DNA of 29,167 nt from positions 1 to 29,167 of IMG/VR virus record IMGVR_UViG_3300049491_000591; one strand, written 5' to 3'. The stretch is from a virus. Each line of letters opens with the position of its first letter. The first letter of the stretch is position 1. Positions 1,846 to 29,167 of this stretch are shown piece after piece. The notes under the pieces are model-generated. The model saw only the letters and a program-made list of their open reading frames with translations. It was not told the DNA's origin and searched no databases. The translations under genes were made by a program, and so were the position numbers.

Positions 1846-4800
1846 ATGTTCGATGAGCTGATGGCCGCGCCTACTGCCGCACCCGCGCCACGCGCCCCCC
1901 GTGCGCCGCGCGCCCCCACTACAACCCCGCGAGCCCCTAGAACCGCCACTAAAGCGGCAGGGTCAGCCGTGGTCAACACCGCCAAAGCGCTGGACAATGC
2001 GATCGACGGCCTGGGCAAGCTGTTCGGCGGCAACAAGCTGGGTTCCGGCCTGTCCTTCGATGAGGAAACCTATGCCCAAGCCAAGCCGCTGTTCATCGCG
2101 GCGGTCGCAAACCTGAAAGACGCCGCGGCCGATCTTCGCGAAGCAATGCGGACGGTCATCGAGATGATTTCGGCGCGCTTCGGGCGCGACGTGGCGCAGA
2201 ACATGAAGCCCTACATCGTGCGGTTCGTCAGCGACGTGCGCGATGGCAAAGTCGAGATGACACAGGAGCAAGACAATGGACAGAACGACACTCGCGGACA
2301 AGGCCCTCAAGCACTGGACGAAATGGCGCCCGGAGATGGTCAAGGAGCTGAAGGCCGAGGGGAAATTGGCGGAAGCGATTCAGGGCGCGGCGTTACAAAC
2401 CCAACGGATGATCGCGGAGCTCAAGTCCCAAGGGCTTCAGGAACACGAAGCGGAGGAAGTGGCGCTACCTCTGTTCGTGCTCCTTCCACCCGAGGCAAAC
2501 GCAAAGGACAGCCCGGAAATGCAGAGCGAGTTGGCGCAGAAGGAAGCGGACTACCAGCGAATGATGGCGGGAACGGTCTAGAGCCGGTATCGGCCACCAA
2601 CCTGCCGGCCTTCAACTTCCGCATCACCCCGGACGTGCGGCTCGGCAAGGGCGGCGAGGTCGAGAAGTTCAACGACAACCTGAAGGCCATCCGAACGCTC
2701 AAGGCGATCGAGGCCGAGCACCGCCGCGCTACGCCCGACGAGCAGCGCGCACTCGCCCGCTACGTGGGCTGGGGTGGGCTGGCCAATGCCTTCCCGGTGA
2801 AGGACACCGAAACCGGCAAGGAAGTCCTGAAACCAGAATGGGAGAAGCGTGGCCAAGAGCTGGCCGAGCTGTTGAGCGACAAGGAATACCAGCTCGCGCG
2901 CCGCTCGACGCTCGACTCGCACTTCACTTCCGAGGATGTCGTCAGCGCGATGTGGTCGGCTGCGCGCCGGCTCGGCTTCCGAGGTGGCATGACGCTTGAA
3001 TCGTCGATGGGGCCGGGAAATTTCCTGGGACTGATCCCCGACGACATGGCCGGCCAGACGCGCTTCATCGGCGTCGAGTACGACTCGTTGACTGCGCGCA
3101 TCGCAACGTTGCTCTACCCGCAGGAGACCGTGCTGAACGCCGGCTTCCAAGCCGTGCCGCTGCCCGATGGCACCTTCGACCTGAACATCGGCAATCCGCC
3201 GTTCGGCGACCAGTCGCTGCGTTTTCAGTACAAGCCCGAGTTGAACGGCGCGACCATCCACAACCAATTCATCCGTGGCGCGCTCGACGCGCTGAAGCCC
3301 GGCGGCCTGCAGATCCAGGTCGTCAGCAGCTCGCTGATGGACAAGCTCGCCAACAGCGACCGCGCGGCGCTCGCCAAGAAGGGCCGGTTGCTCGGCGCGA
3401 TCCGACTGCCCGACACCGCTTTCAAAGAGAACGCGCGCACTGAAGTCGTCACTGACATCCTCTTCATCCAGCGCCTGACGGCTGGTGAAGAGCGGGCAAT
3501 GGCCGAAGCATTCGAGGCAGCGAACCGCAAGCCCGAGAAGTCGGCAACGGATGAAGCCAAACGCCAGCAGCTTGCCGCTGGCGTGCCGGCGTGGGTCAAG
3601 ACCGCCAAGCTCGCCGACCCGCTGGGCGGCGAAGACATGGATGTCAACCGCTACTTCGTCCAGAACCCGCACATGGTCATGGGCCGTATCGAGCGCTCGG
3701 GCACCATGTACCGCGGCGGTTCGATCAACGTGAAATTCGAGAAGGGCGCCAGCCTTTCGGACGCGCTGGCGCGCGCGATCGAGTTCCTGCCGCAAGACGT
3801 GGCAGGGCTGGAGCCCGATGCGATTGCCAAGGCGCTCACCGGCCACAGCCTGATGAGCGATGCCCTGCGCATCGCCCTGTCTGGCCAGGAGCGCGGCAGC
3901 ATCCGCATCGACCTGGACGGCAAGTTGCAACAGGTGGTCGAGAAAGAAACTGCGAACGGTGAATTCCTTCTGGCGCGCCGCGAGCTGACTGCCGAGTCGC
4001 CTTGGTCGGATCAGCTGCTGCAATCGGTCGATGGCGCCTGGTACAAGCTTGAAGTCAAGAAGGATGCCGAGGGCAAGTCGGTCAAGGTCAAGGACGCGGA
4101 CGGAAAGGACACGCGCACCAACCTTATCGAGCGCACCGACTACCCGACCGATGCCGATGTGCCGGCCTTGATGCGCCTGGGCGAAGCCCGCTTCGAGCGC
4201 CTGAAGCTGCTGGTGGGCCTGCGCGACCTGATGGTCGAGCAGATCAACCTGGAAACTGCCGACGCGCCGACTGCGCGGATGGAAGGAAACCGCGCCAAGT
4301 TCAAAGCTGCCTACCAATCGTTCGTGGCCAAGCATGGCCTGATTTCCGAGCCGAGCAACGCGCGGCTCGTCGATGACATGCCCGATGGGGCCTTGGTACA
4401 GGCGCTGGAGGACAAGTACCGCGCCGCCATCACGCCACTGCGTGCCAAGGCGATGGGCGAGCAGCCGCGCCCCGCCAGCGTCGAGCCGGCGCCAATCCTG
4501 TCGCGCCGTGTCATCCCGAAGTACGAACCCGCAACGAAAGCCGACAGCGCCACCGATGCGCTGCAAATCACTCTCTCGGAGTTCGGCAAGATCAAGATGG
4601 ATCGCATTGCGGAGTTGTTGAGCACCGATGAAAACGGCGCCATCTCACAACTCGCCGAGATTGACCACCCGCTGATCTTCAAAGACCCAGAGACCAACAC
4701 ATGGGAGACCCGCGCCGTCTACCTGTCGGGCCAGGTCAAGCGCAAGCTGGTCGCCGCCCGCGCAGCCGGCCTGCGCAAGAACGCTGAAGCGCTCGAAAAG

Positions 4801-7800
4801 GTGCAGCCCGAGCCTATCGGCCCGGAGAACGTCACCGCGTTGCTCGGTTCGACCTGGGTTCCTCCCGAGATATACGCCGACTTTTTCGAGCACATGACTG
4901 GCCAGAAGCCGCGCATCACGTTCAACCGCACGCTCAATCGTTTCACCGTTCGCATGCCAGACGAGAGCACGCGCGAGCTGAACGAGCAGTGGGGGGGCGA
5001 ACGCATCCGCGTCGAGACCCTGATCGAGAACCAGCTCAACACCGAGCCGGTGCGGGTCTACGACCACACCGATGACGGGCCACGGGTCAACGTCACGCTG
5101 ACCGAGCTGGCGCAGATCAAGGCCGCGCAGATCGCCACCGAGTACCAGAACTGGGTTTTCGATGATGGCGATCGGCGCAATCAACTGGTCGAGGTCTTCA
5201 ACGATCGCTTCAACACCAGGGCCAACCGCCAGCATGATGGTTCGCACCTAGTGCTGCCGGGCAAGGTGCCCGATGTGATCCTGCGCATGCGCCGGCATCA
5301 AAAGAATGCTATCTGGCGCGGCATCACCGAGCGCTTCATGCTGATGGACCACGTAGTCGGCGCCGGTAAGACCTTCACCGCGATCGCGCGCGCCATGGAG
5401 CGCCGCCGCATGGGCCTGTCGAAGAAGCCCATGATCGTGGTGCCCAACCACATGGTCGAGCAGTTCACGATCGATGTGTACCGGCTCTACCCCGGCGCCA
5501 AGGTTCTGTCGATGGGCAAGCGTGACCTGGAGAAGAAGAACCGCCGCAAGGCCTTCGCGAAGATTGCCGCCGGTGACCACGACATCGTGATCGTGCCGCA
5601 CTCGTCTTTCGCCTTCATCGACATCGCCAAGGAGACCGAAGAGCGCTATCTCGAAGTCGAGCTGGCAGCAGCCGAGCAGGCGATCAAGGACGCCGTGGCC
5701 GAAGACCCGAACGGCAATGGCTTCCGCAAGTCGCCGACCGTCAAGCAGGCCGAGCGCCTGCGCGACAAGCTGATTGCGCGTATGGACCGCATCAAGGGCC
5801 GCACCAAGGCCGACCGGCTGCTGACCTTCGAGCAGCTTGGCGTCGACGACCTGACAGTCGATGAGGCGCACGAGTTCAAGAACCTGTTCTACAACTCGAA
5901 GCTCGCGGACGTGAAGGGCATGGGCAACCCGACCGGCTCGCAGAAGGCCTTTGACCTCTACAACAAGGTGCGCGTGCTGCGCGAGAGCCCGACCGGCACC
6001 GTGACCTTCATGACCGGCACTCCGATCAGCAACAGCGCGGTCGAGATGTACAACATGATGCGCTACCTCGCCGCCGACCAGCTCGCCGAGCTGGGCCTCG
6101 AACACTTCGACGCTTGGCGTGCACAGTTCGTCAGCACCGATCCGGGATGGGAAGCCGATGAGACCGGCCGGCTCAAGGAAGTCCGTCGCCTGGGCCGCAC
6201 CTGGTCGAACATGCGCAGCCTGATGGACCTCTACTACTCGTTCACTGATTCGGTCGGCAACGACGACATCAAGGCGGCGTACCGCGAGGACAACAACGGC
6301 GCGGAGTTCCCAATCCCGCGCGTGAAGGGCGGCGATCGTCAGTCGGTTGTGATCCAGCCGACCCAAGCCCAGTCGGAATTGCTGAAAACGATCATCGACG
6401 ACTTCAACAGCCTGCCGGGCATTAAAGATCCGAAGGAACGCAACGCGACGCGCCTGCGCCTGATGGACCGATCCCGCAAAGTCTCGCTCGACGTGCGCGC
6501 AGCCGATCGCAGCAGCGACAGTCTGGAGAAAGGCGGGAAACTCGAAAGGGCCTCCGACGAGACCAAGCGCATCTACGACCAGTTCGCCGACCGGCGCGGC
6601 ACGCAGCTGATCTTCCTGGACCGCTCGGTGCCGAAGGCCTCGGGTGACAAGGCCAAGCTGAAGGACTACGACGCGATCGTTGCGCAGCGCGACGCCGCCT
6701 TGGCCAAGGCCGACGAAGAGGGTTACCGCAAGGCCAACGACAAGCTCGAAGTCTTCGACGCGAACGAAATGGCGGAAATGCGCGCGGCTCAGTCCGGGGG
6801 CTGGAACGCCTACCAGCAGATCAAGGACAACCTGATCGCGCGCGGCATCCCGGCCAACGAGATCCGCTTCATTCAGGAGGCCAACAACGACGCCCAGAAG
6901 CAAGCCCTGTTCGATGCCGTCAATGATGGCACCGTGCGCGTGCTGATCGGCTCGACCCAGCGCATGGGCGCCGGGACCAACGTGCAGAAGCGACTGGTCG
7001 GCCTGCACCATGCGGACGTGACTTGGAAGCCATCGGACATCGAGCAGCGCGAGGGCCGCATCATCCGCCAGGGCAACCTGTTCGCAACGCCGACAATCGA
7101 CGGCCTGCCCAACCCGCTCTACGACCCCGCCTTCGAAGTCCAGATCCTGGCCTACGCTACCGAGCGCACGATCGACGCGAAGATGTGGGGCCTGAACAGC
7201 ACCAAGCTGCGCACCATCAACGGCATCCGCAAGTACGACGGCGCTTTCCAGATGGAGTTTGAGGACGAGGAATCGGTCAGCATGGCCGAAATGGCGGCCC
7301 TCGCCAGCGGCGACCCGCTGCTGATGGAGCGCGTCAAGCTGGTCTCCGAGATCCGCAAGCTGGAAATCCTGGAAGACCAGCACCGGCGCAAGGCCTGGGG
7401 CGTGAAGAGCCAGATCGAGCAGTTCGAGCGCAACATCAAGGACTTCCCGGCCACGATTGCCAAGCTTGACGCGACAGCCAAGCGCCTGACCGAAGCAAAA
7501 CTGGCGCTGGAGGAGCGCGCCGCAGCGCGTACCGTCACGGTCGATGGTCAGGTCTTCAAGCGCGGCCAGTGGTCCGATGCAGTGAAGGCCGCCCAGGCTT
7601 CAGCTGAAGCGCAACAGGCCGGCAACGACAAGGCTCGCTATGCCGTGACCATCGACGGCAAGAAGTACACCAACAAGGAGGCGATCGCGAATGCGGTATC
7701 GGCCGCGCTTGGCGATGCCAACGCCTTCGAGGCGATCATCGACGGGCAGAACTTCACCACCATCACCGATGCCGGCCGCAAGATCGCCGAAATGGTCAAG

Positions 7801-10800
7801 GCCGAAGCCGAAGTGCTCGGCAACGGCTCGACGGTCGAGATTGAATTGGGAGCCTTTGCTGGCTACAAGTTCGGTGCTGACCTGTCGCTGAGTTCGACCG
7901 GCGGCATGTACCGACTTGAGTTGAACGTGAGCGATGAGCAGGGCCGCATCTTGAGCCAGGACTCGGCCAGATCACGTGAGAACCCGGACTACACCACCGC
8001 TGCGCTGACCGGGCCGTTGATGGGCCTGGACTTCAAGCCCTACATCGCCCAGGTCTCGGCAGACAACTACCGCCAGTCGCTCGAAACTGCGCAACGTGAG
8101 TTACCGCTCGTGCAGGCTCGCAAGGGCGCGCCGTTCACGCTCGCCAGCGAGCTTGCCGAGAAGCGCGAGCGCCTGGAGGAAGTCACCAAGCTGCTGGCTG
8201 GCACCAAGTCTGTGGACATCTACCCCGACTTGCGCGACATGCAGGCCGAGGAATGGGACATCGCCAACCCGACCGGCTGGCCGAACGTACCGGATGTGAA
8301 GTTCGACTTCCAGGACACCGAGGTTCTGCCCGTGCCTGAGGCGATCGAGGCTGGCCCCGTGCATAGCGGTGATGCCGCAGCTATGGCCAAACTGCAATTG
8401 GCTTTCCGCTCGAAGGTCCCCTCTTTCAAGGACCTGACGCTCACCGCCCTGCCGCGCGTGACCAAGCCCGGCGCGCGTGACTCGCAGCTCGCGCATGACC
8501 GCTACGCCGCTGTCGACATGATGGAAAAGGCTTACGGCAAGCGCGTGGTGTTCTTCCACAGCAGCACGCAGTTCGCCAACGGCATGCAGGCCGACTACCT
8601 GCCGGGCTACATCTTCATCAACGAGAACACCACCCGGCCGATCATGGCGGTGCTCGGGCACGAGCTGCTGCACAGCCTGCGCGTGGACCATCCGGCGCTT
8701 TACGCGAAACTGAGCGATCGCGTCCGCGCGATGCTTGAGAACCCAGGCGCCTACGGCCAGTTGCTCAACGCGCGCCGCGCGAGCCGCGGCATGGCTCCGC
8801 TGACCTTCGACAAGCTGCGCGAAGAGCTGATCGCCGACATCGTTGGCGACAACTTTACCGACCCGCGCTTCTGGCGCCAGATGAGCCTGAGCCAGCCCAG
8901 CCTGTTTGGCCGCGTGCTGCGCGTCATCCGCGACTTCCTCGACACCCTGCTGTCGAAGCTGAAGAACGAGCGCCCCTACGGCACTGACCGCTACCTGAGC
9001 GATGTCCAGGCAGCGCGCGATGCAGTGGTCGATGCCATGCGCCAGTTCTCCAACGACCCGAAGACCTCGGCCGCCGCGGTGGCCAACGCAGCGGAGAACC
9101 TGACTGACACCAACGAACCCTTCTACAGCGAGCTCGCGCGTCAGGTCGAAACCGCCAAGATGGGCAGCGCCCCGGCGCAAGGCTGGGCCGACTGGCTGAA
9201 GGGCCTGACTTCCAAGGGCACGATCAAGGCCGACGAGGTGGCGTGGACGGGGCTGGATGATTGGCTCGCAATGCAGCCCGGCAAGATCACCCGCGCCCAG
9301 GTGCAGCAGTTCCTGGAGGGCAACGGTGTGAAGGTGACCGAGACGACGCTGGGTGTGCGCGAGGAGCCGATCCTGACGGAGCCCGATGCCATCGCTTATC
9401 TACGGCGCGAAACTGGGCTGGACCCAGAAGAGGAATACGGCTACTCAACGCCGAACGACTACGTTGATCTTGCCAACCAAATGCAGGCCGAGCGCGGCGG
9501 CGGAACCAAGTACAGCCAATACACCCTCCCCGGCGGCACCAACTACAGAGAGGTGCTGCTGACGCTGCCGGGCGAGTTTGAGGTGCGCCGAGCCAAGGAC
9601 GGATCGGTCGTTTCGCGCCACAGTATTTTGCAGGAAGCGCGCGCCGCCGTGACGAGCGAAGCCGGTTTGACGATGGCTGGGTCGAGGGCCTACAAATCAA
9701 GCCACTGGGACCAGCCCAACGTGCTAGTCCATATCCGCCTGAATGACCGCACCGATGCCAACGGCAAGCGCGTTTTGTTCGTCGAAGAGATTCAGAGCGA
9801 TTGGGCGCAGGAAGGAAAGAAAAAGGGGTTCGCGGATCAGCGCGGCGCAGCGCTTACCCCCAATGAACACAAGCGTGCGATCGAGCTTCAAACTATTGAC
9901 CGGCAGCGCGAATTGGCTCCCGCAGAGCGCACCGAACTTGATGACCTGTTGCATCGGCATGGTCGAAGCGCGCCCGGCTTGCTGCTGCCTGTCGCCCCGT
10001 TCGTCGGCAAGACCGACGCATGGATCAGCCTAGCCATTAAGCGCGTCATCAAAATGGCCGTCGACGAGGGCTACGACCGGGTGGCGTTCATCAACGGCGA
10101 CCAGTCGGCCGAGCGCTACGACTTGAGCAAACAAGTGGACAGCATTCGAGTCGTCGGCCGCACAGACGCCAGGACAGGAGAAAAGACCCGTTCAGTCACC
10201 GTCGAGCTGAACGAAGACGGCGGAACTTCTACTTTCGGTGTGGATGCAAACGGCGTTGTTGACAACGTGAGCGGAACCCGGCCGATGCGGGATGCCAAAG
10301 GCAAGCCACTGTCCGATGTGATCGGCAAGGAGATGGCCGAGCGCGTGATGACCGCCGATCTTGGAACGCTGCGCGGCGGCGTGGAGTTCAGGGGCGATGG
10401 GCTCAAGGTCGGCGGCGAAGGCATGAAAGCCTTCTACGACAAGATCGTTCCATCGGTTGCCAAAGACGTGCTGAAGAAACTTGGCGGCGATGAGCTGACG
10501 CAGGTTCCGTTGCGCGTAGGCGCTCCCGCCAAGGTGACGCGCGAGAACAAGTTTGATGATGTTCTGTACCGAGACACTGTGCAGCAACCTGGCTTCGACA
10601 TCACCGACTCCATGCGTGAGAAGGCCGCAGGCGGTCTGCCGATGTTCGACCTGAAGGACTACACCGACGAGCAGCGCGAGGCCCTGGCGCGCGCCGGCAT
10701 TGACACTCGCACGCGCCTGCAACGCGCTGGCGATCGCATCCGCCTGTTCTACGATCAAGCCGCGCGTGCGCTGCGCGGCAACTACGCACGCCAGTTCCAG

Positions 10801-13323
10801 CAGGGCTACCTTGACCAGTTCACTGGCATTAAGGAGGCGATCAAGAACGAGATCGGCGGCCTGCCGACCGATCAAGACCCCTACGTCGCAGCTCGGCTTG
10901 CCAACGGCGGCGCCAGTTCCGTGATGCGCGGCCTGATGCTGCACGGCCAAGCCCGCTGGGCGGCCAATGGTCAGCACCTAGAGAAGATTGATGGCACCGA
11001 GGGCCTGCTCGACATCCTCAAGCCACTGGGCGAAGACCTGAACGACTTCTTCGGCTGGATGATCGGCAACCGGGCCGCGCGCCTGATGGCCGAGGGCCGA
11101 GAGAACAACTTCACCCCCGAGCAGATCAAAGTGCTGCAGGCGCTGAACAAGGGCAAGGAAGCCCAGTTCCGCCGGGCCGCGCTGGGCTACGCCGCGTTCA
11201 AGCGCAGCGTGCTCGACATCGCCGAAGGGGCGGGACTGCTGGATGCAGAGGGTCGCAAGGTCTGGGACCAAGCCGACTACATCCCGTTCTACCGCCAGAT
11301 CGACGACAAGGCCGTCTTCAGCGCGACCGGGAAGAAGGGCTTGTCCGGGCAGACATCGGGGATTCGCACGCTCAAGGGCGGCACATCTGCGCTGAACGAC
11401 CCGATGGAGAACATCTTGATGAACTTCAGCCGGCTGGTCGATGCTTCGCTGAAGAACAGCGCGCTGCGCAAGACGATCAGCGTTCTCGAAGACGCTGGCT
11501 CCGACATCATCAAGAAAGTGGGCTACGACATGAGCCGCCAGATCCTGCCGGCGGCGCAGATTCGCGACGTGCTGGAGCGCGCAGGAACCCCAGACCAGAT
11601 CCTTGACATCATCCCGCCCGATGCCTTCGACGGCATGGCCAAGATGTGGGCGATCCAGCCGCCGGCCGACAAGGACGTGGTGCGCATCATGGTCGACGGC
11701 AAGCCGAAGTTCTACAAGGTCAATGACCCGCTGCTGCTGAAGTCGCTGACCAGCTTCGTGCCGTTCGACTTCCCCGGCTTGGGCGTGGCGCGCGCCTTCA
11801 AGCGCATCCTCACTGGCGCGGTGACCTCGACCCCCGAATTCATGGCGCGCAACTTCATCCGGGACACCGGCGCGACGGCGCTCATCAGCCGCGACGGGTT
11901 CCACCCGTTCAAGTCGCTGGCGGGCATCGCCAAGTCCTACACCGAGAAGGGCGCCTACGAGGCCATGCTGTTCGCGGGTGCGAGTTTCCAGTCTGGTCAG
12001 GTGAATGCCGCGGACCCAACTGGCACCGCGACCGCCATGCGGCGCGCGCTGCGCCAGCGCGGGTTCAATGCCAGCTCGGCGAGCGACTTCATGGCAAGCA
12101 TCGTCGACACCCCGGCCAAGTTCTGGGAGAAGTACCGCCACGTGGGAGATGCGATTGAGAACGCAAACCGCGAGGCCGTCTACGAGGCCGCCATGAAAGC
12201 GGGCCGCGGTGAGACCGGCGCGGCCTTCGAGTCGAAAGACCTGATGGACTTCACGTTGCGCGGCAGCTCGCCGGTGTATCAGCTGATGGCCGATGTGCTG
12301 CCGTTCTTCAATGCCCGGGTGCAGGGCCTGTACCGCGTGGGCCGCGCTGACCCAAAGAGGCTGGCCATGTACGGCACGCTGATGATGATGGCCAGCTTGG
12401 CGCTGGCTTTCGCAAACGCGGGCAACGACGACTACGACAAGCTCCCAGACTGGGACAAGGACAGCTACTGGCACTTCTGGGTGAAGGGCCAGCACTTCCG
12501 TATCCCCAAGCCGTTCGAGCTCGGTGTGGTGTTCGCGACCGTGCCCGAGCGGATCATGCGGTATGCGAAGGGCCTGGACTCTGGCGCCAAGACGGCGGGC
12601 CGGATCTACGCCAACATCCGCGACCAACTCGCTTTTGACCCGCTCCCGCAGATGGTTCGACCTGGGGTGAACGTGTGGGCCAACAAGGACACCTTCCGCG
12701 ACGCGCCGATCGAGGGCATGAGCGACGAGGGCAAACTCCCATCACAGCGCTACTCGAAGTCCACCTCGGCCACGGCTGTTGCGGTGGTCAAGGGCATGGG
12801 CTCGGCGGCCGATGAGATCGGTCTGAGCCCGAAGAAGCTCGAGTACCTGGTCGGCGGCTACCTGGGCACGGCCGGCCTGTACGCACTCGGCCTGTCGGAC
12901 ATGGCGGTACGGGCACTCAACAACGAAGCCCCGGCCCCGGCCAAGCGGCTCGACCAGCTCCCGCTGATCGGCAGCTTCTACCGTCAAGACCCAGGCTTGA
13001 GCACGGTCTACGAGTCGGACCTGTACAAGATGCGGACGGAACTGGATCAAGTATTCGCCTCGATCCATGCGCTACGCAAAGACGATCGCGAAGAGGAAGC
13101 CGATGCGTTGGAGTCAAAGAACGAGAAGCTGCTGGGGGCCCGTCGAGCGATCAACCTTGGGGCCAAGAATCTTGCGGGCCTGCACAAGCAGCGCGACGAA
13201 ATCTATGCCGACCGGGCAATGACCCCGAAGGAGAAGCGAGATGCGCTCGATGACATCGCGCGCGAGCAAGGGAATGTGGCCAAGGAAACGATGAAGAACG
13301 AGGATGTACTCAACGCACGATGA
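1846..13323 (+). CDS. Giant polyvalent protein: N6-MTase, SNF2/DEAH helicase, metallopeptidase, LPD-type regions
   Basis: The ORF encodes 3825 residues, about 0.4 MDa. Visible order: Ala/Pro/Arg linker (about 6-45); helical segment with KPYIVRF (about 70-150); low-complexity Gly/Ser/Arg stretch (about 145-247) that is probably overprinted by the nested gene; YVGWGGL at 306; class-gamma adenine methyltransferase with SAM motif ESSMGPGNF near 385 and catalytic NPPF at 450-453; helicase with Walker A GAGKT at 1172-1176, DEAH at 1339-1342, TGTP at 1390 and motif VI QREGRIIRQ at 1734-1742; coiled coil (about 1765-1880); metallopeptidase HELLH at 2272-2276; a region with VEEIQSDW (2646) and AERYDLSKQVD (2755); and a long C-terminal region (about 2925-3825) with one likely membrane segment near 3505. 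The architecture matches large phage and ICE polyvalent proteins and recalls P1 DarB and the Bcep22 giant protein. Delivery with the DNA and protection against restriction are inferred. ATG 1846 has a weak ribosome site; the true start may be 1637 via a frameshift. Confidence 0.85.
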   Translation: MFDELMAAPTAAPAPRAPRAPRAPTTTPRAPRTATKAAGSAVVNTAKALDNAIDGLGKLFGGNKLGSGLSFDEETYAQAKPLFIAAVANLKDAAADLREAMRTVIEMISARFGRDVAQNMKPYIVRFVSDVRDGKVEMTQEQDNGQNDTRGQGPQALDEMAPGDGQGAEGRGEIGGSDSGRGVTNPTDDRGAQVPRASGTRSGGSGATSVRAPSTRGKRKGQPGNAERVGAEGSGLPANDGGNGLEPVSATNLPAFNFRITPDVRLGKGGEVEKFNDNLKAIRTLKAIEAEHRRATPDEQRALARYVGWGGLANAFPVKDTETGKEVLKPEWEKRGQELAELLSDKEYQLARRSTLDSHFTSEDVVSAMWSAARRLGFRGGMTLESSMGPGNFLGLIPDDMAGQTRFIGVEYDSLTARIATLLYPQETVLNAGFQAVPLPDGTFDLNIGNPPFGDQSLRFQYKPELNGATIHNQFIRGALDALKPGGLQIQVVSSSLMDKLANSDRAALAKKGRLLGAIRLPDTAFKENARTEVVTDILFIQRLTAGEERAMAEAFEAANRKPEKSATDEAKRQQLAAGVPAWVKTAKLADPLGGEDMDVNRYFVQNPHMVMGRIERSGTMYRGGSINVKFEKGASLSDALARAIEFLPQDVAGLEPDAIAKALTGHSLMSDALRIALSGQERGSIRIDLDGKLQQVVEKETANGEFLLARRELTAESPWSDQLLQSVDGAWYKLEVKKDAEGKSVKVKDADGKDTRTNLIERTDYPTDADVPALMRLGEARFERLKLLVGLRDLMVEQINLETADAPTARMEGNRAKFKAAYQSFVAKHGLISEPSNARLVDDMPDGALVQALEDKYRAAITPLRAKAMGEQPRPASVEPAPILSRRVIPKYEPATKADSATDALQITLSEFGKIKMDRIAELLSTDENGAISQLAEIDHPLIFKDPETNTWETRAVYLSGQVKRKLVAARAAGLRKNAEALEKVQPEPIGPENVTALLGSTWVPPEIYADFFEHMTGQKPRITFNRTLNRFTVRMPDESTRELNEQWGGERIRVETLIENQLNTEPVRVYDHTDDGPRVNVTLTELAQIKAAQIATEYQNWVFDDGDRRNQLVEVFNDRFNTRANRQHDGSHLVLPGKVPDVILRMRRHQKNAIWRGITERFMLMDHVVGAGKTFTAIARAMERRRMGLSKKPMIVVPNHMVEQFTIDVYRLYPGAKVLSMGKRDLEKKNRRKAFAKIAAGDHDIVIVPHSSFAFIDIAKETEERYLEVELAAAEQAIKDAVAEDPNGNGFRKSPTVKQAERLRDKLIARMDRIKGRTKADRLLTFEQLGVDDLTVDEAHEFKNLFYNSKLADVKGMGNPTGSQKAFDLYNKVRVLRESPTGTVTFMTGTPISNSAVEMYNMMRYLAADQLAELGLEHFDAWRAQFVSTDPGWEADETGRLKEVRRLGRTWSNMRSLMDLYYSFTDSVGNDDIKAAYREDNNGAEFPIPRVKGGDRQSVVIQPTQAQSELLKTIIDDFNSLPGIKDPKERNATRLRLMDRSRKVSLDVRAADRSSDSLEKGGKLERASDETKRIYDQFADRRGTQLIFLDRSVPKASGDKAKLKDYDAIVAQRDAALAKADEEGYRKANDKLEVFDANEMAEMRAAQSGGWNAYQQIKDNLIARGIPANEIRFIQEANNDAQKQALFDAVNDGTVRVLIGSTQRMGAGTNVQKRLVGLHHADVTWKPSDIEQREGRIIRQGNLFATPTIDGLPNPLYDPAFEVQILAYATERTIDAKMWGLNSTKLRTINGIRKYDGAFQMEFEDEESVSMAEMAALASGDPLLMERVKLVSEIRKLEILEDQHRRKAWGVKSQIEQFERNIKDFPATIAKLDATAKRLTEAKLALEERAAARTVTVDGQVFKRGQWSDAVKAAQASAEAQQAGNDKARYAVTIDGKKYTNKEAIANAVSAALGDANAFEAIIDGQNFTTITDAGRKIAEMVKAEAEVLGNGSTVEIELGAFAGYKFGADLSLSSTGGMYRLELNVSDEQGRILSQDSARSRENPDYTTAALTGPLMGLDFKPYIAQVSADNYRQSLETAQRELPLVQARKGAPFTLASELAEKRERLEEVTKLLAGTKSVDIYPDLRDMQAEEWDIANPTGWPNVPDVKFDFQDTEVLPVPEAIEAGPVHSGDAAAMAKLQLAFRSKVPSFKDLTLTALPRVTKPGARDSQLAHDRYAAVDMMEKAYGKRVVFFHSSTQFANGMQADYLPGYIFINENTTRPIMAVLGHELLHSLRVDHPALYAKLSDRVRAMLENPGAYGQLLNARRASRGMAPLTFDKLREELIADIVGDNFTDPRFWRQMSLSQPSLFGRVLRVIRDFLDTLLSKLKNERPYGTDRYLSDVQAARDAVVDAMRQFSNDPKTSAAAVANAAENLTDTNEPFYSELARQVETAKMGSAPAQGWADWLKGLTSKGTIKADEVAWTGLDDWLAMQPGKITRAQVQQFLEGNGVKVTETTLGVREEPILTEPDAIAYLRRETGLDPEEEYGYSTPNDYVDLANQMQAERGGGTKYSQYTLPGGTNYREVLLTLPGEFEVRRAKDGSVVSRHSILQEARAAVTSEAGLTMAGSRAYKSSHWDQPNVLVHIRLNDRTDANGKRVLFVEEIQSDWAQEGKKKGFADQRGAALTPNEHKRAIELQTIDRQRELAPAERTELDDLLHRHGRSAPGLLLPVAPFVGKTDAWISLAIKRVIKMAVDEGYDRVAFINGDQSAERYDLSKQVDSIRVVGRTDARTGEKTRSVTVELNEDGGTSTFGVDANGVVDNVSGTRPMRDAKGKPLSDVIGKEMAERVMTADLGTLRGGVEFRGDGLKVGGEGMKAFYDKIVPSVAKDVLKKLGGDELTQVPLRVGAPAKVTRENKFDDVLYRDTVQQPGFDITDSMREKAAGGLPMFDLKDYTDEQREALARAGIDTRTRLQRAGDRIRLFYDQAARALRGNYARQFQQGYLDQFTGIKEAIKNEIGGLPTDQDPYVAARLANGGASSVMRGLMLHGQARWAANGQHLEKIDGTEGLLDILKPLGEDLNDFFGWMIGNRAARLMAEGRENNFTPEQIKVLQALNKGKEAQFRRAALGYAAFKRSVLDIAEGAGLLDAEGRKVWDQADYIPFYRQIDDKAVFSATGKKGLSGQTSGIRTLKGGTSALNDPMENILMNFSRLVDASLKNSALRKTISVLEDAGSDIIKKVGYDMSRQILPAAQIRDVLERAGTPDQILDIIPPDAFDGMAKMWAIQPPADKDVVRIMVDGKPKFYKVNDPLLLKSLTSFVPFDFPGLGVARAFKRILTGAVTSTPEFMARNFIRDTGATALISRDGFHPFKSLAGIAKSYTEKGAYEAMLFAGASFQSGQVNAADPTGTATAMRRALRQRGFNASSASDFMASIVDTPAKFWEKYRHVGDAIENANREAVYEAAMKAGRGETGAAFESKDLMDFTLRGSSPVYQLMADVLPFFNARVQGLYRVGRADPKRLAMYGTLMMMASLALAFANAGNDDYDKLPDWDKDSYWHFWVKGQHFRIPKPFELGVVFATVPERIMRYAKGLDSGAKTAGRIYANIRDQLAFDPLPQMVRPGVNVWANKDTFRDAPIEGMSDEGKLPSQRYSKSTSATAVAVVKGMGSAADEIGLSPKKLEYLVGGYLGTAGLYALGLSDMAVRALNNEAPAPAKRLDQLPLIGSFYRQDPGLSTVYESDLYKMRTELDQVFASIHALRKDDREEEADALESKNEKLLGARRAINLGAKNLAGLHKQRDEIYADRAMTPKEKRDALDDIAREQGNVAKETMKNEDVLNAR
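2276..2581 (+). CDS. Conserved-looking phage protein nested in the giant ORF (frame 2)
   Basis: This 101-residue ORF (MDRTTLADKALKHWTKWRP...) overlaps the giant ORF in the other forward frame. It looks like a normal globular helical protein: Leu, Ala, Glu and Lys in a heptad-like arrangement, and an ALPLFVLLPPE segment near residue 65. It resembles small phage proteins with an HWxxxRPxMxxEL opening. Third codon positions in this frame are mostly G or C. The giant frame over the same bases has far poorer third-position GC and reads as Gly/Ser/Arg/Thr low complexity. This frame therefore carries the selected coding signal. The ribosome site is ACAGGAGCAAGACA just before the ATG. Function is unknown. 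Confidence 0.75.
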   Translation: MDRTTLADKALKHWTKWRPEMVKELKAEGKLAEAIQGAALQTQRMIAELKSQGLQEHEAEEVALPLFVLLPPEANAKDSPEMQSELAQKEADYQRMMAGTV

Positions 13324-25006: not shown

Positions 25007-25158
25007 TGTTGATTTGTCGGCCAGTAGGTCGCGGCAACTGGCGCGTCATCGTAGTGGCAGTGAACGTTCCGCCCGACCTGTTCCGCTTTCGTTGCGGCCA
25101 GCGCTTCACTTGGGGTGAGCCAGCGCAGACGTTGCGCATCGTCGAGGTGCAGCCATGA
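25006..25158 (+). CDS. Small phage protein, unknown (50 aa)
   Basis: A 50-residue protein, MLICRPVGRGNWRVIVVAVN..., with FRFRCGQRFTWGEP and LRIVEVQP. It resembles the short LLVCRPxGRGNWxxxxLxI proteins seen in other phages beside the previous gene. AAGGGG is 8 bases before ATG 25006; the adjacent GTG at 25003 is an alternative. Two Cys and several Arg suggest a compact fold. It overlaps the methyltransferase start as ATGA. No function can be given. Confidence 0.65.
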   Translation: MLICRPVGRGNWRVIVVAVNVPPDLFRFRCGQRFTWGEPAQTLRIVEVQP

Positions 25159-25448
25159 CAACGCGCATTTTGATCGGCGACTGCCGCGAGGTGCTGAAGA
25201 CACTGCCCGATGACTCGGTGCACTGCTGCGTGACCAGCCCGCCCGCGCTGGCCGAGCGCTGCATCACAGCTGGATGCCCAGTTGAAGGAACGGTGCTTGA
25301 TCCCTTTGGTGGAAGCGGGACCGTAGGCATGGCGGCTGACCGCCAGCACAAGCACGCGATCCTGATTGACCTGGACGAGCGAAATCTCCCGATGGCGACC
25401 GACCGTATCAAGAGCGACTCCCCCCTGTTCGCCGAGGTCTCCGAATGA
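25155..25448 (+). CDS. DNA methyltransferase with its central region missing (97 aa)
   Basis: The protein has the two ends of a beta-class N4-C/N6-A methyltransferase and little between. Residues 5-30 (ILIGDCREVLKTLPDDSV... CVTSPP) give the N-terminal strand and catalytic TSPP at 27-30. Residues 31-97 start at once with ALAERCITAGCP and then carry the SAM-binding VLDPFGGSGT (47-56) and ILIDLDERN. Full-length relatives have a long middle with TSPPYWGLRDY-type sequence and the target-recognition part before (F/K)PxxLAERC. The junction (about 25236-25247) keeps the frame, so this looks like an internal deletion. It is probably unable to methylate DNA but may still bind SAM. It ends in an ATGA overlap with the initiator. 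Confidence 0.8.
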   Translation: MTTRILIGDCREVLKTLPDDSVHCCVTSPPALAERCITAGCPVEGTVLDPFGGSGTVGMAADRQHKHAILIDLDERNLPMATDRIKSDSPLFAEVSE

Positions 25449-27883: not shown

Positions 27884-28329
27884 GCCTCCCCTACGAAGGC
27901 GCGACCAGCGGCGGCGCTGCGCTGGAAGAGATCCGAAAGCTGTTGACCAAGTTCGGCTGCGCGCGATTCGGCACCATGACCGACGCGGAGCGTGGCGAGC
28001 TGGTGGTGCAGTTCACCTACCGCGGCCGCGATGTGACCGCCAAGGCGAGCTACCGCGGCTACGCGGCGGCGTGGATGCGTGAGCATCCTTTTACGCAGCG
28101 CACGCGCGGCACCAAGGTTGAGCACGAGCGGAAAGCCATGGCCCAGGCTGAAATCAGCGTGTGCAGCATCCTGCGCGACTGGATCAAGGGCCAGGTCATG
28201 GCTGTCGAAACCGGCATCCTCACCTTCGAGGGCGCATTCCTCGGCCAGATCCTGTTGCCCAACGGCAAGACGGTGCTTGAGCAGGCCTCGGACGGCGGGT
28301 TGCTGCCGAAGATCGGGATGGCGTCATGA
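27880..28329 (+). CDS. Phage protein, unknown (149 aa)
   Basis: A 149-residue protein, MSLPYEGATSGGAALEEIRK..., with the segments LVVQFTYRGRDVTAKASYRG, AAAWMREHPFTQRTRG, MAQAEISVCSILRDWIKGQV and ETGILTFEGAFLGQILLPNG. The pattern of a small beta sheet plus helix and an RDWIKGQVxAxExGxxxFxxxFLxxxLLxxG tail is found in small phage proteins near resolvases, but it has no assigned role. It overlaps the RuvC-like gene as ATGA and is probably co-translated with it. Confidence 0.7.
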   Translation: MSLPYEGATSGGAALEEIRKLLTKFGCARFGTMTDAERGELVVQFTYRGRDVTAKASYRGYAAAWMREHPFTQRTRGTKVEHERKAMAQAEISVCSILRDWIKGQVMAVETGILTFEGAFLGQILLPNGKTVLEQASDGGLLPKIGMAS

Positions 28330-28841
28330 TCGTCGTCGCCATCGACATCGGCATGACCGGCGCTGTCGCCTGCATCCGGCCCGATCGCAGCTCGGTCGTG
28401 ACCGACCTGCCCATGACCGAGACCGAGGCCGACAAGTGGCTCGACGCTCGAGCGCTGTACGACATCCTGCTGGCCTGGGTGCCGGTGACCGAGCGCTGCA
28501 TCCTGGTGGTCGAGAACGTGCGGCCGCGATCCATCGGCAACGGCGGCCTGCCCACGAACAGCATGCACAGCCAGGGCGCCCTGATGCGCGGCCGCGGTGC
28601 CGTCGAGGCGGTGGCCAGCATCGCGCGCTGGCCCATCACGTGGGTGCAGCCCCAGACCTGGAAGCGCCACTACGGCCTGAAGCGCGACGAGAACGAGACC
28701 GACAGCGCGATCAAGGAGCGCGGCCGGCAGATGGCCCTGAAACTGTTCCCCGAGCAGGACCAGCAACTGAAGTTCAAGTACCACCACAACCGAGCCGATG
28801 CCCTGCTGATGGCGCACTGGGGAAGGAGTACGCAACTATGA
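28326..28841 (+). CDS. RuvC-like Holliday junction resolvase
   Basis: A 171-residue protein with an RNase H-type core: strand IVVAIDIGMTGAVACI with Asp7, LVVENV with Glu63, and a C-terminal motif KYHHNRADALLMAHW with His154 and Asp158, which fits the fourth acidic residue of RuvC-type enzymes. RuvC-type resolvases cut four-way DNA junctions. In a phage this clears branched replication and recombination products before packaging. It ends the replication operon, and its stop is 8 bases before the attC-like site. No key residue is missing. Confidence 0.82.
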   Translation: MIVVAIDIGMTGAVACIRPDRSSVVTDLPMTETEADKWLDARALYDILLAWVPVTERCILVVENVRPRSIGNGGLPTNSMHSQGALMRGRGAVEAVASIARWPITWVQPQTWKRHYGLKRDENETDSAIKERGRQMALKLFPEQDQQLKFKYHHNRADALLMAHWGRSTQL

Positions 28842-28848
28842 GCTTGCC

Positions 28849-28951
28849 TTCTAACGCAGAGTTGAGCGGACCCGCTCCGGCCCGCACCAAAGGATGACGA
28901 TGACTCAAAGTAACCAAGCCGGAGCGGGTCCGCTCCAACGACCAGTTAGGC
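28849..28951 (+). mobile_element. Integron attC-like site
   Basis: The site shows R''-like TTCTAAC (28849-28855), L''-like GTTGAGCGG (28861-28869), an arm AGCGGACCCGCTCCGGC (28865-28881), the paired arm GCCGGAGCGGGTCCGCT (28918-28934), L'-like CCGCTCCAAC (28930-28939) and R' GTTAGGC (28945-28951). The arms match over 17 bases. GTTG/AGCGG pairs with CCGCTCCAAC only if one base is bulged, as extrahelical bases are in attC sites. Both outer spacers are 5 bases (GCAGA, GACCA). GTTAGGC fits GTTRRRY fully; TTCTAAC fits RYYYAAC at 6 of 7 positions. The total of 103 bases is in the attC range. Confidence 0.7.
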
Positions 28952-29157
28952 CGCACCCGCGAACCTTTGCGCGGTTTCCCGCTGACTCGACGTGCCCGAT
29001 TTGCGGAACGAACGACGAAGGCGAAACGGTGCTCGTGCCGATTGCTGGCACACTAGATGGCAACATTTCGGAAGCCCGACCAATGCACATGGCGTGCTGC
29101 GTTCCGCGCCAGTGGGACGAAGGCTTGCAACTGGCGCTGAACTGGCCCGCCCCATGA
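28900..29157 (+). CDS. Small CxxC protein, likely cassette-borne
   Basis: From ATG 28900 (AAAGGA 5-6 bases upstream) the ORF encodes 85 residues; ATG 28894 is an alternative. The first 20 or so residues are encoded by the attC-like site (GAGPLQRPVRPHPR). The rest is a small domain: FPADSTCPICGTNDEGETVL, VPIAGTLDGNISEARPMHMA, CCVPRQWDEG. The CPIC plus H...CC arrangement suggests a zinc ribbon-like fold. Similar proteins with CP(I/V)CGTN and a GNI...A.P.H...C end are known from integron gene cassettes and other accessory DNA (from memory). The stop is 10 bases before the window end; no second attC is visible. Confidence 0.65.
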   Translation: MTQSNQAGAGPLQRPVRPHPRTFARFPADSTCPICGTNDEGETVLVPIAGTLDGNISEARPMHMACCVPRQWDEGLQLALNWPAP

Positions 29158-29167
29158 AAAACTGTAC

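Follow-up and report, generated by a model that had tools for sequence, protein, structure and literature searches.

The folded site behind the phage resolvase

The window analysed in this work is the whole of the IMG/VR record IMGVR_UViG_3300049491_000591, 29,167 bp of tailed-phage DNA, whose genes encode a RecE-like exonuclease, a single-strand annealing protein, NinB, a Holliday junction resolvase, a primosomal protein and an endolysin, and in which 0 Rfam families and 0 tRNA genes were found. Near its end the resolvase gene (28326-28841, plus strand; phrog_1770, E-value 1.4e-21) adjoins a folded site at 28849-28951, inside which a small gene for a CxxC protein begins (28894-29157, plus strand), and the first bases of a second small gene lie at 29154-29167 (plus strand). 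Two other genes of this phage can be mentioned here. The 97-aa ORF at 25155-25448 has a TSPP methylase motif fused directly to a DPFGGSGT motif and matches the N6_N4_Mtase profile at its end alone (positions 166-219 of 221), as if the middle of a methylase had been deleted. The gene at 1846-13323 encodes a polyvalent protein of 3825 aa with an LPD38 domain; its SNF2/helicase matches are weak, and parts of it are 31-35% identical to long proteins of two contigs (L038 and L040) that carry the phage integron integrases described below.

The site folds into an imperfect hairpin in which L'' pairs with L', and it has spacers and an extrahelical base, as was originally predicted. Its arms (28864-28881 and 28918-28935) are perfectly complementary over 18 nt, not 17 as first counted, and are prolonged outward by GTT/AAC to 21 nt in all, with one unpaired base (C28936 on the plus strand); the spacers are 5 nt long, and the boxes at the two ends read TTCTAAC (28849-28855) and GTTAGGC (28945-28951) on the plus strand. 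The DNA fold of the site has a z-score of -5.66 against shuffles, 0 of 200 being as strong. A scanner for the R''/L''/L'/R' arrangement scored it at 57, against a maximum of 41 when the whole window was shuffled 300 times with a dinucleotide Markov model, and found it to be the sole such site in the window. Finally, a covariance model accepts it on one strand only. This model, R1, is our own rather than HattCI or an IntegronFinder profile; it was trained on 13 attC from class 1 plasmid integrons, the P1 and Shewanella phage integrons and a Kovacikia plasmid, and it recovers held-out control attC in Gemmatirosa (L060; 13 sites) and in L061. It gives the site 42.1 bits (E-value 4.8e-9) on the minus strand and only 7.8 bits on the plus strand. 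The sequence at 28849-28951 is a genuine attC, and it lies on the minus strand.

With the attC on the minus strand, the GTTAGGC at 28945, which does exist but was initially taken for R', becomes the R'' box (GCCTAAC, 28945-28951, minus strand, fitting RYYYAAC), while R' is GTTAGAA (28849-28855, minus strand) and the crossover G|TT is predicted between 28855 and 28854. This R' fits GTTRRRY at 6 of 7 positions, the last base being off, and its counterpart in a sister phage (G001, see below), GTTAGAC, fits at 7 of 7. The extrahelical base, assigned to L'' (28936, minus strand) by alignment of the arms, agrees with this polarity: on the true attC strand, the controls have their surplus of unpaired bases in the 5' arm (with a tie for the blaIMP-8 site, which occurs twice, and with one spurious low-scoring candidate left out), and so does the window on its minus strand. 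Most sites have a second extrahelical base, which this one lacks.

An intergenic hairpin of this strength, covered by no Rfam family, might also be a terminator, a REP-like repeat or a regulatory RNA hairpin, with no role as a recombination site. However, no T-run follows the hairpin, the window holds a single copy of it, and acceptance by the covariance model on just one strand is at odds with such an element; the sister phages bear on this point further, as described below.

The cassette common to two phages

Outside the window record, the arm sequence of the site occurs once in IMG/VR, in the same cassette of the 32-kb contig IMGVR_UViG_3300049491_000135 (G001), which has terminase, portal and head protein genes. 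The stretch common to the two phages comprises the attC and the CxxC gene (318 bp, 99.4% identity); the sequence on the resolvase side differs, and the resolvase gene is missing from G001 despite the common cassette. The homology between the window and G001 (locus L004) begins at 28850, within the minus-strand R' box, i.e. at the predicted G|TT crossover, and this is the same point as the junction between the sister contigs L017 and L023 discussed in the next section. A boundary in this position assigns the attC to the CxxC cassette and the resolvase to the phage backbone, where it flanks the outer end of the array; the site is therefore the outer end of a cassette that starts here and runs off the record.

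The prediction that the site marks the capture of a gene cassette by a phage has held; as far as the window record extends, the cassette is common to it and G001. Its alternative form, in which a plus-strand attC closes a resolvase cassette, could draw on the perfect GTTRRRY match of GTTAGGC at 28945 and on the resolvase stop (28841), which stands 7 bases ahead of the site, one fewer than first stated. We reject it as next to impossible on grounds of polarity and of the boundary in G001: the plus strand scores far below the minus strand in R1, the extrahelical base would be in the wrong arm, G001 has another gene ahead of the site, and the homology sets in at 28850 and not at 28945.

The site lies about 320 bp from the end of a record assembled from a metagenome, and this raises the question of a chimaera, in which a fragment of a bacterial integron was fused to the end of a phage contig. 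However, an independent phage contig, G001, has the same cassette, with attC at both of its ends, and many other phage contigs carry arrays in a like position, which makes an assembly artefact very improbable.

The apical loop of the attC (28882-28917, plus strand) contains an RBS-like AAAGG (28889-28893) and two start codons, ATG 28894 and ATG 28900, of which the spacing from AAAGG makes the latter the more likely start of the CxxC gene. The start codon of this gene is located in the loop and its first ~20 residues are encoded by the attC, to which it is antisense; hence it does not simply come after the site, as had been supposed, but is the cargo of the attC's own cassette. The 87-aa product is 98% identical in L004 and matches DUF5346 weakly, below the cut-off. 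Searches with the CxxC protein in plasmids and phages gave no match, and neither did a nucleotide search of a phage collection with the stretch from the resolvase to the end of the record. The second cassette ORF (MKNC...) overlaps the stop of the first (ATGA); it is incomplete at the end of the window and complete in G001 (L004 5261-5479), where the next attC closes the cassette (L004 5474-5563, minus strand; R1 45.9 bits). The window contains 1 attC up to the end of the record, which falls inside the array, and G001 contains 2 attC within 0.6 kb and 1 at its other end; no intI was found in the 29-kb window or in G001. At the array end of G001 there is also a palindrome, GGGGCCTAACGTGATATAGGCCCC (31545-31568, corresponding to L015 11545-11568; minus strand), with an R-box inside, which resembles the phage TJE1 terminator with an inverted GTTRRRY that appears in the accessible text of Qi et al. 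2023 (PMC9892861).

Integron integrases and cassette turnover in sister phages

A relative of the CxxC protein led to L005, a 6-kb IMG/VR contig that encodes an integron integrase (256.6 bits with TIGR02249; E-value 8e-44 against IntI4 in the PDB, 2a3v). Approximately 28 IMG/VR contigs encode relatives of this integrase with 46-90% identity; they were gathered by searches with the L005 integrase, by alignments and by one search with an attI-like motif, an exact search with the block described below having turned up a new intI contig. Among the members scanned, most score 236-287 bits with TIGR02249 and the most distant 187, several exceeding the cut-off of 265. In a tree, 11 of the phage integrases, chosen without the more distant relatives, form one clade with support of 100/100 and a long stem. 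The residues that align with the recombinase catalytic motifs (R138, the R269/H270 region, H292 and Y301, numbered as in A1) do not vary among the first ten sequences. Genes for terminase, helicase or other phage functions occur on several of the integrase contigs, and terminase, portal and head protein genes are present among the sister contigs. A scan of ~85,000 bacterial and archaeal species genomes with short exact peptides, a method blind to distant relatives, found no member of the clade. The intI of L063 (857-1794) seems to be frameshifted near its C-terminus, as two tblastn pieces lie in different frames; the cause may be an error in sequencing or decay of the gene. In addition, the "xerD" gene of Virus Rctr41k (L030; KX853513, 4680-5678) encodes an integron integrase according to TIGR02249 (383 bits, cut-off 265), and this virus is missing from the four cases of phage integrases in the accessible text of Qi et al. 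2023 (PMC9892861).

The sister phages in which a complete integron was sought (L005, L016-L029, L063, L069-L095) have in common a block upstream of intI, AACNNNGATTNNNCAAC..., in which AAC is invariant and the preceding bases vary from phage to phage. Cassettes joining at this point, at G|TTRRRY of the opposite strand, would produce such variation, and from its sequence and its place beside intI we regard the block as a putative attI-like site. Arrays of uniform polarity accompany it: all 49 distinct attC hits of R1 in the intI-bearing loci (18 in a first set and 31 in a second, E-values up to 0.1, duplicates removed) are on the strand opposite intI, as they also are in the class 1, Shewanella, Kovacikia and Diaphorobacter controls.

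Two of these phages, L017 and L023, share 99.98% identity over 11,002 bp, intI included, and L017 is without exactly 1,454 bp of L023, which correspond to two cassettes (two attC units), the break falling exactly at attI. The junction in L017 reads ...AAAAAATCTAA|CGATG... (ATCTAA|C), with the overlap AACG, and the contig of a third relative, L018 (98.4%), begins exactly at AACGATG. This is the trace that excision or insertion by an integrase would leave, and we infer that IntI was the agent. Exact changes by cassette units, together with a mosaic boundary at the predicted crossover, a single copy in the window and acceptance by the model on one strand only, lead us to reject the terminator or REP-like reading of the site, to which we attach almost no probability.

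Cassette genes read against their attC sites

Integrons are mainly known as bacterial devices, and attC sites in phages have been taken as pieces derived from the host. By the standard rule, the orientation of the cassettes lets a fixed promoter drive them. In the sister phages, the cassette ORFs do not run in the attC orientation. A plain count of the longest ORFs in the phage arrays gives 13 antisense and 7 sense, but this count is too noisy in GC-rich DNA, and we therefore used a codon model trained on the long ORFs of the same contigs, calling a cassette informative when its best score was at least 5. All 34 informative cassettes have their ORF antisense to the attC (17 of 17 in the first set, after which the threshold was fixed, and 17 of 17 in the second, scored with it unchanged); the model fails on some short cassettes, and 7 in the first set and 14 in the second were uninformative. 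In the bacterial controls, the ORF lies on the attC strand in 26 of 26. The CxxC ORF of the window itself scores near zero (-3.1), yet above both antisense ORFs. In many sites the start codon lies inside the attC and the first 15-25 residues come from its 3' arm, and in other cassettes the best-scoring ORF begins further inside. As for recognizable cargo, L019 has two DNA methylase genes, and further ones occur in L020 and L029; L027 encodes an SspD-like protein and L005 a Lar-like one. All these genes read in the direction of intI, in agreement with the codon model. ORFs reversed in this manner could not use Pc at its usual place.

Taken together, these data lead us to propose, with a probability of about 85%, that the minus-strand attC of the window is the outer end of an array located behind the resolvase of a tailed phage, with two antisense genes on the plus strand through which the phage operon reads. 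Since the cassette genes are antisense to the attC, their translation would start in the attC loop and their transcription would be read through from the phage operon, the transcript running from the phage replication genes through the array. The attC hairpin, extruded in single-stranded phage DNA, would be the substrate of IntI, which would recombine the folded site at G|TT, and the phages would swap small accessory genes via their arrays, several of them for anti-restriction or DNA modification. The window phage presumably belongs to the phage-IntI system, its intI lying beyond the end of the record or acting in trans; as neither the window nor G001 has intI, it is the anatomy of the array that places it in the intI-bearing lineage.

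It is also conceivable that the array is a captured cassette cluster (CALIN), i.e. that the attC cassettes came from elsewhere to a phage without an integron of its own. This would be equally compatible with the attC call and would differ only in the location of the integrase. Phage CALINs are already known from the accessible text of PMC9892861, neither the window nor G001 has intI, and G001 lacks it although both ends of its contig are in an array, so that a phage CALIN with its integrase provided in trans has to be considered seriously. On the other hand, the ORFs of the window are antisense to the attC as in the intI-bearing phages and opposite to the bacterial controls, and the same cassette is found in two different phages. 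We consider a captured cluster unlikely, though clearly less so than the other alternatives, and prefer an array that belongs to the phage-IntI system.

On a broader scale, we lean, with less confidence, towards a widespread lineage of tailed phages that has its own class of integron, with a private IntI clade, attI and attC, and with the ORFs flipped, in which the attC provides the start region and an N-terminal leader for many cassette proteins and counter-restriction cassettes are traded between phages, that of the window included.

The phage sites have the R''/L''/L'/R' boxes, 5-6 nt spacers, L'' extrahelical bases and G|TT crossover of canonical attC from class 1 and chromosomal integrons, and differ from them in that the cassette ORF is antisense and starts inside or near the attC. 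In the plasmid integron of Gemmatirosa kalamazoonensis (L060) the model also accepts the attC, and intI and the ORFs are likewise on one strand, but there the attC is on that strand too. In the inverse integrons of Treponema (PMC3607928), intI and the cassette genes read one way, as in the phages. There, however, it is intI that is reversed with respect to attI; it points towards attI, and the cassette genes come after. In the phages intI and attC keep their usual relation and the cassette genes have been turned round, so that the two rearrangements are distinct. In archaeal integrons (PMC9668308) the ORFs generally have one orientation, like in the bacterial ones. The one directly relevant paper that our search for phage integrons and antisense cassettes found, preprints being outside it, is that of Qi et al. 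2023 (PMC9892861), whose accessible text reports attC, CALINs and bacterial-type integrons in phages, cassettes with methylase cargo, and phage attC that work with IntI1. According to the same text, the complete integrons are in temperate phages and of bacterial integron origin where traced, and the CALINs are without intI; neither a phage-specific IntI clade nor reversed cassettes are described in it. A search for papers on such a clade or on attC-antisense arrays, from which preprints and most subscription papers were absent, found none. Thus attC in phages are already known from the accessible text of PMC9892861, and the phage IntI lineage and the reversed cassettes were not found in the literature searched.

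A dedicated phage integron lineage with turnover at the strain level, if confirmed, would be a site-specific route for the exchange of accessory genes, some of them with an anti-restriction role. The reversal of the genes with respect to the attC breaks the rule of orientation and fixed promoter, conceals such genes from annotation that presumes the usual orientation, and makes it testable whether the folding of the attC doubles as a translation-start element. Attention should also be drawn to attC-like sites on the 3' side of intI, in L027 (6065-6158), L091 (2333-3529), L016 (7602-7690) and L029 (2265-2385), of which the site in L027, detected by the scanner alone, is of the other polarity, judging from its extra bases; the arrays may stretch to either side of intI.
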